Shown: piece by piece, positions 1-3,368 of the stretch
How the letters are laid out: each line of letters begins with the position of its first letter
Numbering within the stretch: position 1 is the stretch's first letter
DNA from: Akkermansiaceae bacterium
Lineage (GTDB): Bacteria; Verrucomicrobiota; Verrucomicrobiia; Verrucomicrobiales; Akkermansiaceae
Direction of reading: 5' to 3'
DNA: 9,135 nt
Assembly (NCBI GenBank): GCA_023300065.1
Contig: JALZWJ010000129.1
Location: 1 to 9,135, forward strand
Program-made: the position numbers and the translations under genes
Notes under the pieces: model-generated
What the model saw: only the letters and a program-made list of their open reading frames with translations
The model's database searches: none
What the model was told of the DNA's origin: nothing

Positions 1-104
1 GAGGTGGATTTTATTTCCATTTAATTGCGGAAAGATGGCGATTTTTTTTTAAGGCTATAAGGAGCGGCCGTTTATGACGTGCCGTGAGCCTAAGGGGAGT
101 GGAG
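1..104. other. Left-edge intergenic stretch with a T9 run
   Basis: No gene is supported in these bases, which lie downstream of the selenoprotein gene. A run of nine T at 42-50 follows a very weak possible stem (CCAT 17-20 with ATGG 35-38) on the plus strand, so it might be the tail of a terminator for a gene left of the window. No good terminator for the selenoprotein gene itself was found. Confidence 0.3.
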
Positions 105-461
105 TTAGGTAAGGAACTCGGCGATGCGGGCCTTGGGGCGGCCGATGATTGCTTTGTTTCCTTTGACGAGGATGGGGCGTTGGAGGAGCTGCTTGTGCTT
201 TACGAGGATGTCGACGACGGCCTTTGGGTTGTTGACGAAGTCGTCTGGGTTGAGTTCGAGTTTCTTGAACTTGGAGTCTTTGCGGACGAGGTCCTCGACC
301 GGGTCCTCTAGGGCGTCGACGAGGTGGGTGAGGGTGGCTTCGTCGGGCGGGGTTTTGATGTAGAGGACGACGTCGTGATCGACTCCGAGTTCCTTGGCGA
401 CCGCCAAGGCATTGTCAGAGGACCCTCAATGATTGAAGTGGTAGATGGTGACTTTGGACAT
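105..461 (-). CDS. ArsC-family thioredoxin-fold selenoprotein (in-frame UGA at the active site)
   Basis: Seen: reading from ATG at 461 gives MSKVTIYHFNH, then TGA (426-428), then GSSDNALAVAKELG and on to TAA at 105, 118 residues in all. Family knowledge: the plasmid R773 arsenate reductase begins MSNITIYHNPAC with catalytic Cys12, and binds oxyanion through Arg60, Arg94 and Arg107. Here the UGA is codon 12, and arginines occur at 60 (LVRKD), 95 (QRPILV) and 108 (IGRPK). The YIKTPP stretch near 34-39 matches YLETPP of ArsC. The length is normal for the family. A SECIS-like hairpin follows the UGA, so it is read as selenocysteine. There is no cysteine anywhere in the protein, so an outside reductant such as glutaredoxin or glutathione would be needed. 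No arsenic genes are nearby; the substrate may be arsenate or another thiol or oxyanion. No Shine-Dalgarno is seen. The alternative is a nonsense mutation or sequencing error at this codon. Confidence 0.85.
392..409 (-). promoter_or_regulatory. Candidate bacterial SECIS hairpin
   Basis: On the mRNA strand the sequence CCTTGGCGGTCGCCAAGG forms a perfect 7-bp stem (CCUUGGC/GCCAAGG) closed by a GGUC tetraloop. It starts 16 bases after the in-frame UGA, putting the loop 23 bases downstream. Bacterial SECIS elements lie inside the coding region directly after the UGA and carry a conserved G, usually GU, at the start of the apical loop for SelB binding; the Escherichia coli fdhF element has a similar GGUC loop, as I recall. 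No bulged U in the stem and no clear lower helix were found, which is a weak point. The stem encodes residues 18-23. Confidence 0.78.
426..428 (-). other. UGA recoded as selenocysteine (codon 12)
   Basis: The triplet TCA on the plus strand is TGA in frame with both the ATG at 461 and the 100 codons that follow. It replaces the CGTSR-type active-site cysteine of ArsC (here U-GSSD). Conservation of the ArsC fold continues on both sides of it, which argues for read-through and not for termination. Confidence 0.83.
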
Positions 462-487
462 GGGGGAGAGGTAGCAGTGGGTGGGAG

Positions 488-503
488 AAGGTCAACTGAC
501 CTT
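488..503. promoter_or_regulatory. 16-bp palindrome, candidate operator
   Basis: AAGGTCAACTGACCTT has perfect 7-bp arms (AAGGTCA/TGACCTT) around a 2-bp centre. It ends 27 bp upstream of the selenoprotein start, where a repressor or activator dimer could act, or it may lie in the 5' leader as a hairpin. No regulator gene is in the window to pair with it. Function is inferred from symmetry and position only. Confidence 0.4.
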
Positions 504-554
504 GCTGGTTTTTCTGAGGAGGTTGGTTGTTGGCTTGTGGCGGGGGATTTGTGA

Positions 555-585
555 GAACTCTCTTTTCATCGGGTTTTGAGAGTTC
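555..585. repeat. Inverted repeat, 8-bp arms with 15-nt loop
   Basis: GAACTCTC (555-562) and GAGAGTTC (578-585) are exact reverse complements around a 15-base spacer. Neither strand has a T-run after it, so a simple intrinsic terminator is unlikely. It could be a leader structure of the selenoprotein transcript or part of a dispersed element. Confidence 0.45.
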
Positions 586-719
586 CGGTTCTAGCCATCG
601 CTCCCTTGTGGATGAGCAATACGTTCGCGCAAGTGCCTCCGGAAAAGGTGGCGGTCCTGATTTGTTGAAGAAGGAAGTCGACTTGCGTTTTTAGGGGCCT
701 TTTACGAGGAGTGAAGGAA

Positions 720-740
720 AGCGCGTTCCACGGACGCGCT
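720..740 (-). terminator. Hairpin just after the TPR-redoxin gene, possible weak terminator
   Basis: AGCGCGT (720-726) and ACGCGCT (734-740) pair perfectly around a 7-base loop, beginning 24 bp past the stop codon of the TPR-redoxin gene. On the minus strand the stem is followed by TTTCCTTC, only mildly T-rich. It may terminate that gene, or it may be a small palindromic repeat of the REP kind with copies elsewhere in the genome. Confidence 0.4.
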
Positions 741-763
741 ATGTGCCGAGGCCGAAGTGAGTG

Positions 764-3016
764 CTACTGATAGATCGAGAGCAGGCGCTTTGATTCCTTG
801 ATGAGGAAGTCGATTTCCATGAAGGGGTCGGCGGAGATGTCTGACCAGAGGATGCGGCCTTGGGGGTCTAGGACGAAGGTGCCGTGGAGGGGTTGGTCTT
901 CGAAGTCATCGTGCGCGGTGTATTTTTTGAAGATCTCTTTTTTGAAGTCGGAGACGATAGGGAAGGGGATTTTGCCTTTTGAGTAGTTGTCTTGGGAGTC
1001 CTTGAGGTTTGCGATGTCATCGGTGGAGATGGCGAGGATGGGGAGGGCGGCTTTCTCAAAGTCGGGGTAGCGGTCGGCCATGGCGGTGAGTTGCTCGGTG
1101 CAGTGGAGGCAGCCGGCGCCGAGGTAGAAGACGAGGATGAGGGGCTGGCCGCGGTAGTTGGCGAGGGAGATGGGGGTTTGGTTTTGGTCGGGGAGGGTGA
1201 AGTCTGGGGCGGCGGGGGGAGTCCAGTGGAGGGGGCCTAGGGAGTCGAGCTCCGGGCGGGGGAGGAGGTCGGCGGCTGGGGTGTGAGGGAGGCGCCAGTC
1301 TTGTGGGTAGCCGAGTTCTGCGGCGATGGGCGCGAGGCGGGCGAAGATGGGGGAGGTCATCTCGATCTGGGAGGAGAAGGTGCGGAGGTCTGCAAAGCCT
1401 GCCTGCCAGGCGGGGTCGTCATTTTTAGCGTGGTAGAGGGTGTGGATGGCTGTGGCGAGGGGGGCGGTTTCTTTGTTCTTTTTCTCGATCTGTTTGCGGG
1501 CGGTTTCGGCAGCTTTGTCGTGGTTCCCGTATGCGAGTTGGCGGAGCATGGATGAGAATTGGGAAGGGCGTTGTGCGAGGGCCTTTGTGGCGGTTTCGAA
1601 GTCGCCGTTTAGGGCGTGGAGGTAGCCGCGGAGTTCGATGAGGGTGTTGTCGAATTTTTTGACGGTCTTCTGGTGTTGGGCGAAGGCCTTTTTCTCAGCG
1701 GATTTGATTTCCTTTTCTTTCTTCTTTTCTTTGACGGCCTTGGCGCGTGCTTTTTTTTCGGCGGTGGTTTGATCTGTTTTTACTTTGGTGAGGTGTGAGT
1801 CGATTTCTCCGATGATTTTTTTGAGTTCGTCTTTCTGGCCGAGGTTGGAATGAGCAACTGCGATGAGGCGCAGGCGGGAGAGGTCGTCAGCGGGTTTGTC
1901 GAGTTTTTCGAGCCAGGGTGAATGGGCGGTGTGGAGCGCCTCCTGCCAGAGTTCTGATTTTTCGAGCGCGTCTAAGAGGGCTTTCCGTCCATATCTTACG
2001 GAGCCTTTTTTGTAGGTATTGAGCTTGGGGTGGCGGGGGTTGGCGAGGAGGGACTTGGCCATGTCGATGCTGGCGCGGACCTGGCCGAGGATGTGAAAAT
2101 TACGGACGAGCCATTCGTTATTGTGGCTGTAGTTGTGGATTTGGTCGGGGAGGAGGAACCACTTTTGCATGTGGGCGTGGTCGATGCGGGCGGAGGCTTG
2201 TTGGTGCCATGTGGCGTCGTGGTAGCGGTTGGCCTGTGTGTAGATGTGCCCGGGCATGTGCCACATGTGGGCGATGGCAGGCGCGGTGGTGCCGAGGCGG
2301 GCGGCGGAGTCTAGGGCCTGTTTATGCTCCCGGTAATCCCAGAGGTGGATGGCGTAGTGATGAGCGGGGTGGTTTGGCTTTTCGGCAAAGATTTTTTCAA
2401 GGATGGCATCCAGTCCGAGGTGGGTGGTAATGGGCATACCTCTTTGGCTGAATTGCCAGTGGAAGCAGACGAGGAGGGCCTTGGCCTCAAGGTCATGGGG
2501 GTAGTCTAGGACGATGTCTTCGTAGGCTTTGAGGTAGTTTTGACGTCGTTTTTTAAGGTCCTTTTGTTTCTCGTCATCGTGGAAGGCGATCTCTGCTTCG
2601 AGGTAGGCTTTTTCGTGTCCTTCTGGTGGGTTTTTTTCGATGAGGGGGGCGGCTTTCTCTAAGAAGGCTTGTGCGCGTTTTGGGTTTTCAAAATTTGCTT
2701 GGGAGAGCCCCCAATAGGCCATGAGGCAGTCTGGGTCGTGGGCTAGGATGGCGCGGAATGAGCGCTCTGCCTCATAATACCAAAAGCCGTGGAGCTGGCC
2801 GAGGCCTTGATCAAAATAGGCCTGTCCCTGATCCCAAGTGGTGGTGATGGGGAGGTGGACTTCCCCGATGTGTTTCATGAGGGGGCCGGTTTGGCGGGGC
2901 CCCTCGTTAAAGGCGTGTCCGTTATGGGAATGTCCTTCTTTGATTTCCTGTTCAGCTTCCTTTGCCGTGAGGTTTAGGGTGAGGGTAGATAGGACGAGGG
3001 TAAGAAATTTTCTCAT
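764..3016 (-). CDS. Exported TPR protein with C-terminal redoxin (AhpC/TSA-TlpA-like) domain
   Basis: The 750-residue product begins with a signal peptide (MRKFLTLVLSTLTLNLTA, probable cut before KEA), so it should act in the periplasm. The frame stays open 43 codons upstream, but the start at 3016 is preferred because it exposes the signal peptide and avoids overlap with the divergent gene. Residues 70-330 are helical, TPR-like (a typical stretch is WYYEAERSFRAILAHDP), and 216-307 is strikingly rich in histidine (HMWHMPGH, DHAHM, HNYSHNN). Residues 409-455 are lysine-rich and probably coiled coil. From about 590 there is a redoxin fold (APDFTLPD, then LILVFYLGAGCLHC) with Cys636 and Cys639 as a CxxC pair, and a late VLDPQGRILW strand. 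The CxxC resembles TlpA/ResA-type exchange more than the single peroxidatic cysteine of a classic peroxiredoxin. Partner and substrate are unknown. Confidence 0.82.
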   Translation of the reverse strand: MRKFLTLVLSTLTLNLTAKEAEQEIKEGHSHNGHAFNEGPRQTGPLMKHIGEVHLPITTTWDQGQAYFDQGLGQLHGFWYYEAERSFRAILAHDPDCLMAYWGLSQANFENPKRAQAFLEKAAPLIEKNPPEGHEKAYLEAEIAFHDDEKQKDLKKRRQNYLKAYEDIVLDYPHDLEAKALLVCFHWQFSQRGMPITTHLGLDAILEKIFAEKPNHPAHHYAIHLWDYREHKQALDSAARLGTTAPAIAHMWHMPGHIYTQANRYHDATWHQQASARIDHAHMQKWFLLPDQIHNYSHNNEWLVRNFHILGQVRASIDMAKSLLANPRHPKLNTYKKGSVRYGRKALLDALEKSELWQEALHTAHSPWLEKLDKPADDLSRLRLIAVAHSNLGQKDELKKIIGEIDSHLTKVKTDQTTAEKKARAKAVKEKKKEKEIKSAEKKAFAQHQKTVKKFDNTLIELRGYLHALNGDFETATKALAQRPSQFSSMLRQLAYGNHDKAAETARKQIEKKNKETAPLATAIHTLYHAKNDDPAWQAGFADLRTFSSQIEMTSPIFARLAPIAAELGYPQDWRLPHTPAADLLPRPELDSLGPLHWTPPAAPDFTLPDQNQTPISLANYRGQPLILVFYLGAGCLHCTEQLTAMADRYPDFEKAALPILAISTDDIANLKDSQDNYSKGKIPFPIVSDFKKEIFKKYTAHDDFEDQPLHGTFVLDPQGRILWSDISADPFMEIDFLIKESKRLLSIYQ

Positions 3017-3104
3017 GAACGGAGGGCTTGGCAGTTGATGATGCGGAAGTAATATGGTGCCGTTTTTCAATGACTCAATGGAAGAATCGAGGAGGGAGGT
3101 TTCT
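3017..3104. promoter_or_regulatory. Divergent intergenic promoter region
   Basis: These 88 bp separate the TPR-redoxin gene (leftward) from the small membrane-protein gene (rightward) and must hold start signals for both. No confident -35/-10 pair is seen. The only clear signal is the Shine-Dalgarno tract GGAGGGAGG at 3091-3099. Confidence 0.4.
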
Positions 3105-3368
3105 GTGAAAACTGGGGTGATTGAGAAGGCCCTCTCGGCGGCCATCTTCCTCTTGTGTATTGGGCTTTTACTTCAAGGTTGGCGTCTAGGAATGGCGAGG
3201 CTTGTCCCGATTTTTTTAGCTCCGGTGACGATGATTTGGTTCCCGGAAAGAGCGTCCGAATACTTTAGCTCCCGAGTCACAGCAGATACGATCCGGAATT
3301 GGGGCTGGGTGCTGTTACTCCTGCTAGGGCTGCCCGCCTTGGTCGGAACAGTGGCCTTGAGGGGGTGA
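3105..3368 (+). CDS. Small integral membrane protein of unknown function
   Basis: The GTG at 3105 is chosen because a strong Shine-Dalgarno, GGAGGGAGG at 3091-3099, sits 5 bases upstream. The frame also opens at ATG 3054, adding 17 polar residues, with only a modest GGAAG before it. The 87-residue product has hydrophobic segments at about 10-26 (ALSAAIFLLCIGLLLQGW), 31-46 and 67-84 (WGWVLLLLLGLPALVGTVAL), so two or three membrane spans. No motif was recognised. It is divergent from the TPR-redoxin gene and converges with the sulfatase, 9 bp away, so it is probably a one-gene transcript. Confidence 0.62.
   Translation: MKTGVIEKALSAAIFLLCIGLLLQGWRLGMARLVPIFLAPVTMIWFPERASEYFSSRVTADTIRNWGWVLLLLLGLPALVGTVALRG

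Follow-up and report, generated by a model that had tools for sequence, protein, structure and literature searches.

A predicted ArsC-family selenoprotein with UGA at the catalytic cysteine position in an Akkermansiaceae bacterium

Introduction

Sargasso Sea data of 2005 yielded 14 sequences of an arsenate reductase selenoprotein of the UxxS type, for which a SECIS element was drawn (PMC1088965), and the same UxxS ArsC selenoprotein type appeared in the GOS survey of 2008 as 'ArsC 1', with 77 sequences (PMC2398784). It is also listed in reviews of 2022 (PMC9312934) and 2026 (PMC13188914), all four sources being cited here from the portions of their text available. Words beginning with 'verrucomicrob' are absent from the main texts of these four papers; for PMC1088965 and PMC2398784, this suggests that the hosts were left unassigned. 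Among the titles listed from the open-licence PMC literature on selenoproteins, none places this gene in Verrucomicrobia, Acidimicrobi- or Akkermansiaceae.

Here we describe such a gene on a 9,135-nt stretch of DNA (the window), which is a whole contig of a 2.24-Mb, 65% complete Akkermansiaceae assembly. As far as the available text of PMC1088965 and PMC2398784 goes, the window protein and the published UxxS type have in common the PF03960/COG1393 domain, Sec at the catalytic Cys position and a bacterial SECIS element (both predicted for the window protein), the UxxS motif, Cys homologs and marine occurrence. The comparison with the published members AACY01238341 and MBT3519430.1 is one of description (domain, motif and SECIS), again within the text available. 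The UxxC type ('Arsenate reductase 2' of GOS; NF041106, in the available part of PMC13188914) is likewise ArsC-like with Sec, but the window protein is UxxS, and NF041106 is not among its NCBIfam matches at E ≤ 0.001. The gene very probably encodes another UxxS ArsC selenoprotein, a kind already described in 2005 and 2008 (PMC1088965, PMC2398784, to the extent of their available text). The initial annotation of the locus had allowed that the family might not be wholly new, and the 2005 report bears this out. What is added here are the hosts (Akkermansiaceae and Acidimicrobiia), the decoding machinery, covariation in the SECIS hairpin and a probable transfer between phyla. The UxxS ArsC selenoprotein of metagenome surveys can now be tied to nameable bacterial groups, to tRNA-Sec, selA and selB, and to a covarying SECIS.

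Results

An in-frame UGA aligns with the catalytic cysteine of ArsC

The predicted ArsC-family selenoprotein gene occupies 105..461 on the minus strand. Its frame runs from ATG 461 to the stop at 107-105 and encodes 118 residues, with codon 12 (426..428, minus strand) as the sole in-frame TGA and the predicted site of Sec. With U for TGA, the predicted protein begins MSKVTIYHFNHUGSSDNALAVAKELG. The translation agrees with the initial annotation, which had described a frame open for 118 codons apart from the lone TGA, TIYH before it, YIKTPP, Arg60, Arg95 and Arg108 after it, and no cysteine anywhere in the protein.

Pfam ArsC (PF03960) matches the protein with 49.6 bits against a cut-off of 24. 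In the alignment to R773 ArsC (1jzw; 1i9d is also listed), codon 12 falls on the catalytic Cys12, and Arg60, Arg95 and Arg108 align with Arg60, Arg94 and Arg107. Compared with R773 ArsC (1i9d; TIGR00014), the fold, His8, the Cys12 position, Ser15 and the arginine triad are common to both. The window protein differs in having Sec (predicted) for Cys and Phe9 for Asn9, in a TIGR00014 score below the cut-off, and in that the window holds no ars operon.

Codon 12 is conserved as TGA in close relatives

Any match to the protein was found in 69 of the 260 genomes of the host's family. In 39 of these the match is near full length, with 66-99% identity, exactly one internal TGA and no other stop. One genome (G203) holds only a fragment that begins after codon 12, and the matches in the other 29 have at most 33% identity and open frames. 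To these we added loci named in database records, taking the 80 best of the 183 relatives found; codon 12 was read in these 80 and in 30 of the 39 family loci. The two groups overlap in species, and the 110 loci amount to 82 distinct nucleotide sequences, 70-99% identical. Codon 12 was found to be TGA in 110/110, which argues that the TGA is not there by chance. Ahead of the TGA, variation in codons 6-8, which encode Ile, Tyr and His, is silent only, and no Cys occurs outside residue 12 in any of the 110 loci.

A wider set comprised 80 further loci (10 from Verrucomicrobiota and 70 from the class draw), some of them identical to named-locus genes and two duplicated. The 82 matches in this set that cover codon 12 have TGA in 50 cases, TGC in 27 and TGT in 5, and nothing else. 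The outcome is what the initial annotation had anticipated for a selenoprotein: homologs align Cys or UGA at this codon (82/82 in the wider set), neither TGC nor TGT replaces the TGA in the 110 related loci, and the 39 near-full-length matches are free of the random stops that a decaying gene would show. Three Acidimicrobiia loci (L077, L091 and L119) have UNSS instead of UGSS, with the hairpin described below unchanged. Three others (L192, L196 and L197) contain two UGA ArsC genes each, on opposite strands and roughly 2 to 17 kb apart.

Conserved residues and the question of substrate

The available text of PMC5593903 gives roles to two residues of E. coli ArsC: His8 reduces the pKa of the Cys, and Ser15 has a stabilising effect on the loop. 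Both residues are invariant here: the His8 codon (438..440, minus strand) encodes His in 82/82 distinct sequences, as Ser15 of the UxxS motif (U12-G-S-S15) is Ser in 82/82. The triad codons Arg60 (282..284), Arg95 (177..179) and Arg108 (138..140), all on the minus strand, also encode Arg in 82/82. An AlphaFold model, built on a 41-sequence alignment, has a pLDDT of 88.7. Its first fold matches are chains named arsenate reductase (3rdw, 3f0i and 1i9d), the first Spx chain being ranked 10th and YffB 18th.

On these grounds a reaction can be proposed in which the protein would rely on a single nucleophile, Sec12, with His8 as its activator. Sec12 would attack arsenate or a similar oxyanion, as the arginine triad (60, 95, 108) suggests, and an external thiol, for instance glutathione or glutaredoxin, would release the product. 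Judged from sequence, arsenate reduction as the reaction has about an even chance of being correct. It is also quite possible, if somewhat short of even, that the protein is a selenoprotein with the ArsC fold acting on something other than arsenate, as a selenol oxidoreductase of disulfides, glutathione mixed disulfides or another oxidised compound. Such a substrate would be in keeping with the TIGR00014 (arsenate reductase, glutaredoxin) score of 84.7 bits, below the cut-off of 106.05, as are those of the Cys relatives P0090 (94.8) and P0198 (91.4), and with the replacement of Asn9 by Phe9 (among relatives, residue 9 is Asn, Phe or Tyr). Furthermore, a Pfam scan of the six main window ORFs found no ars gene besides this one, in agreement with the initial annotation, and PF03960 also includes Spx and YffB (PMC5593903 and PMC3169414, in the text available). 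Spx and YffB have the superfamily fold in common with the window protein, but the latter scores only 41.4 bits with TIGR01617 (Spx/MgsR; cut-off 75.05), and the arginine triad is absent from YffB, as stated in the available part of PMC3169414. The invariant triad separates ArsC from YffB and hence favours arsenate or a like oxyanion, as do the invariant His8 and Ser15 and the fold matches to named arsenate reductases.

A covarying, predicted SECIS hairpin follows the UGA

A bacterial SECIS hairpin is predicted within the coding sequence at 392..409 on the minus strand, with a 7-bp stem (409-403 paired with 398-392) and a GGUC apical loop (399..402, minus strand) that is invariant in 82/82 distinct sequences. 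The distance from UGA to loop is 23 nt. Each of the 110 loci retains the loop together with six or more of the 7 pairs, so that the GGUC-loop hairpin originally noticed at the right distance in one sequence is a feature of all of them. The GGUC loop presumably resembles that of E. coli fdhF.

Two pairs (numbered from the T of TGA) covary. Pair 24/33 changes from G-C to A-U in 10 of the 82 distinct sequences, and pair 22/35 from U-A to C-G in 8 of the 82. The switch at pair 24/33 consists of coordinated silent changes, Leu19 TTG to TTA and Ala22 GCC to GCT, with TTA accompanied by GCT in 10/10. As a control, same-amino-acid codons were shuffled 500 times among the sequences, a procedure in which relatedness remains. 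It was found that 560 of 574 cells are paired, compared to a shuffle maximum of 547, and that 20 cells show double changes, compared to a maximum of 9. Codon choice at the hairpin is restricted. Val21 is GTC in 82/82, compared to 46% of the Val codons further on in these genes; for Ala20 the codon is GCG in 79/82 (31% elsewhere) and for Ala18 it is GCC in 80/82 (42% elsewhere). In the wider set, the GGUC loop motif occurs in 25/50 Sec sequences and in 0/30 distinct Cys sequences.

The folding energy of the hairpin is modest (z of -1.5 to -1.7, with 12 to 14 of 200 shuffles folding equally well). With synonymously recoded sequences as the reference, the 82 sequences have a mean z of -1.48, the 50 wider-set Sec sequences one of -1.78 and the 30 Cys sequences one of -0.90. 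The support for the hairpin is its conservation and covariation; energy is weak evidence. The window hairpin, with a 4-nt loop beginning GG, 7 bp and a distance of 23 nt, fits the bacterial SECIS model of PMC13188914, which in the text available requires a loop of 3-9 nt, a stem of 4-16 bp, a G in the first two loop positions and 16-37 nt from the UGA.

A second hairpin type is present in 15/50 wider-set Sec loci, all without GGUC (L174, L176, L178, L179, L182, L184, L190, L194, L195 and L198-L203). It has a CGUGA or CGUGC loop, lies 6 nt nearer the UGA and keeps at least 6 of 7 pairs; 0/32 Cys matches reach 6 pairs.

Selenocysteine machinery in the host and its relatives

For the UGA to be read as Sec, the GGUC-loop hairpin at 409-392 would be the binding site of SelB, which with Sec-tRNA(UCA) would place Sec at codon 12. 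The initial annotation had asked for the sel genes, treating a genome without selB or tRNA-Sec as grounds to abandon the proposal; none of its grounds for refutation was borne out. A tRNA-Sec is present (54.4 bits, gathering score 47; ARAGORN tRNA-SeC, anticodon tca), as is selA (483 bits, cut-off 267.9). SelB was seen only as a start: its first ~115-120 residues lie at a contig end and score 141 bits (residues 2-108), below the cut-off. This start has 60-79% identity to the SelB of eight relatives up to about residue 120, with two alignments reaching 143 at 60%. No selD match over the cut-off was found in the host assembly, which is 65% complete. At that contig end (L009, the end of G000:C300), the selB start continues in frame into sequence resembling another protein; this tail is perhaps an assembly join.

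Among the 27 genomes of the genus, selA exceeds the cut-off in 25 and selD in 23. SelD in this genus is itself a UGA protein, with 22 full-length copies carrying one TGA among the 27 genomes; the UGA lies at CGGU in the four copies read (L134-L137).

Across the family, selB over the cut-off accompanies the gene in 36/39 genomes, compared to 32/221 genomes without the gene. The gene-bearing exceptions are the host (G000), G177 and G228, which are 65-88% complete. A tRNA-Sec of at least 50 bits, under stricter search filters, was found in 28/39 genomes with the gene and 30/221 without. The family genomes are related, so these co-occurrences are not a set of independent events. SelB over the cut-off was also found in 24 of the 27 genomes behind 27 loci, namely those titled as Actinomycetota groups together with L072. 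The latter is a contig labelled Pirellulaceae that carries the same Sec gene, and its genome has SelB over the cut-off.

Taken together, 461-105 (minus strand) is very probably an ArsC-family selenoprotein gene in which UGA codon 12 is decoded as Sec via a SECIS hairpin in the coding sequence, a reading made from comparative sequence data. Points against it are that selD was not found and selB is incomplete in the host assembly, that tRNA-Sec was seen in only 28/39 gene-bearing family genomes, and that the hairpin energy is unexceptional. For Sec insertion at codon 12 by itself, we infer a very high probability.

Database annotation and alternative readings of the UGA

The ORF list contains a 100-residue frame from TTG 407 (105..407, minus strand), a fragment without the active site, and database matches of 100-102 aa start at the same point. 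As the initial annotation expected of standard gene calling, databases carry this form. Short forms (<112 aa, without codon 12) make up 157 of 226 database proteins besides the window's own, many of them 100-102 aa long and starting just past the TGA. In the rest, residue 12 is Cys in 41 (full-length) and Trp in 27, and one was not parsed. The flank of the Trp proteins P0005 and P0006 is that of L085, whose codon is TGA, and their Trp is therefore TGA translated by another code. Trp in the other database proteins presumably has the same origin. With a 100-residue 'arsenate reductase' without active site in the databases, or Trp at the Sec position, ordinary annotation hides the gene.

The database entries would suit a TGA that is a real stop, with the gene decayed or with only the 100-residue protein from TTG 407 being made. 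This is very improbable given the fixation of TGA in 110/110 loci, the 39 family matches without another stop, the purely silent variation of codons 6-8 ahead of the TGA and the presence of tRNA-Sec and selA in the genome; furthermore, the fragment would be without the catalytic position. Decoding of the UGA as tryptophan, or with a near-cognate tRNA, has hardly any probability: the 27 Trp database proteins would speak for it, but the Trp of P0005/P0006 comes from the translation code, TGG is found in 0 of 110 loci, other window genes terminate at TGA and the exchange partner in genomic loci is Cys, not Trp. A chance stop, a pseudogene and UGA as Trp were accordingly rejected on the fixed TGA, the lack of other stops and the Cys exchange at codon 12.

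Distribution and history of the Sec form

Among 387 Verrucomicrobiota genomes drawn evenly, the host was the only one with the Sec form. Of 395 genomes drawn from the class to which G278 and the genomes behind the loci titled Acidimicrobiaceae and Acidimicrobiia belong, 141 gave matches, with and without TGA. A tree of 173 proteins (117 columns, with many forks unresolved) requires a minimum of 5 switches between Sec and Cys and of 2 between phyla. The Verrucomicrobiota Sec forms make one group amid Acidimicrobiia Sec forms, both in this tree (support 73) and in a smaller one of 54 rows hand-picked from the 173 (91/83); in the smaller analysis, the Acidimicrobiia come together in 0% of 200 bootstrap trees. 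Despite this nesting, a single Acidimicrobiia clade is not rejected by an AU test (p 0.42), so that a transfer is compatible with either direction. Gene transfer between Acidimicrobiia and Akkermansiaceae, in either direction, is the simplest reading and a probable one.

A fuller scenario can be put forward tentatively, as slightly less than an even prospect. One ArsC Sec gene would have passed from one of two groups, Acidimicrobiia (Actinomycetota) and Akkermansiaceae (Verrucomicrobiota), to the other without loss of its GGUC SECIS, which the recipient would still decode. Deeper Acidimicrobiia would have moved to the CGUG-loop hairpin, nearer the UGA by 6 nt, and others would have reverted to Cys and lost the hairpin. 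If true, the family would preserve a natural history of SECIS elements and SelB changing in concert. With its Sec/Cys exchanges and two or more hairpin types, this small family offers a set for testing SECIS-SelB matching.

One Cys form, L211 (TGC), falls within a Sec group (support 92), next to L190, a Sec form, and has neither hairpin type. L211 is likely a Sec-to-Cys reversal.

Genomic neighbourhood

No operon partner emerged from 26 loci of both phyla, in that no neighbour is widely common across them. With the gene itself and the frame antisense to it left aside, only two ORF clusters, c19 and c32, span both phyla, each linking one locus per phylum. What likeness of neighbourhoods remains is a loose synteny confined to the genus or to Acidimicrobiia. 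A scan of window 1-800 found no promoter, and the five Rfam matches over window 1-1000 are all far below gathering score. Upstream of the gene, window 764-3145 (minus strand) encodes a 793-residue protein with a C-terminal AhpC/TSA peroxiredoxin-like domain containing a CLHC motif.
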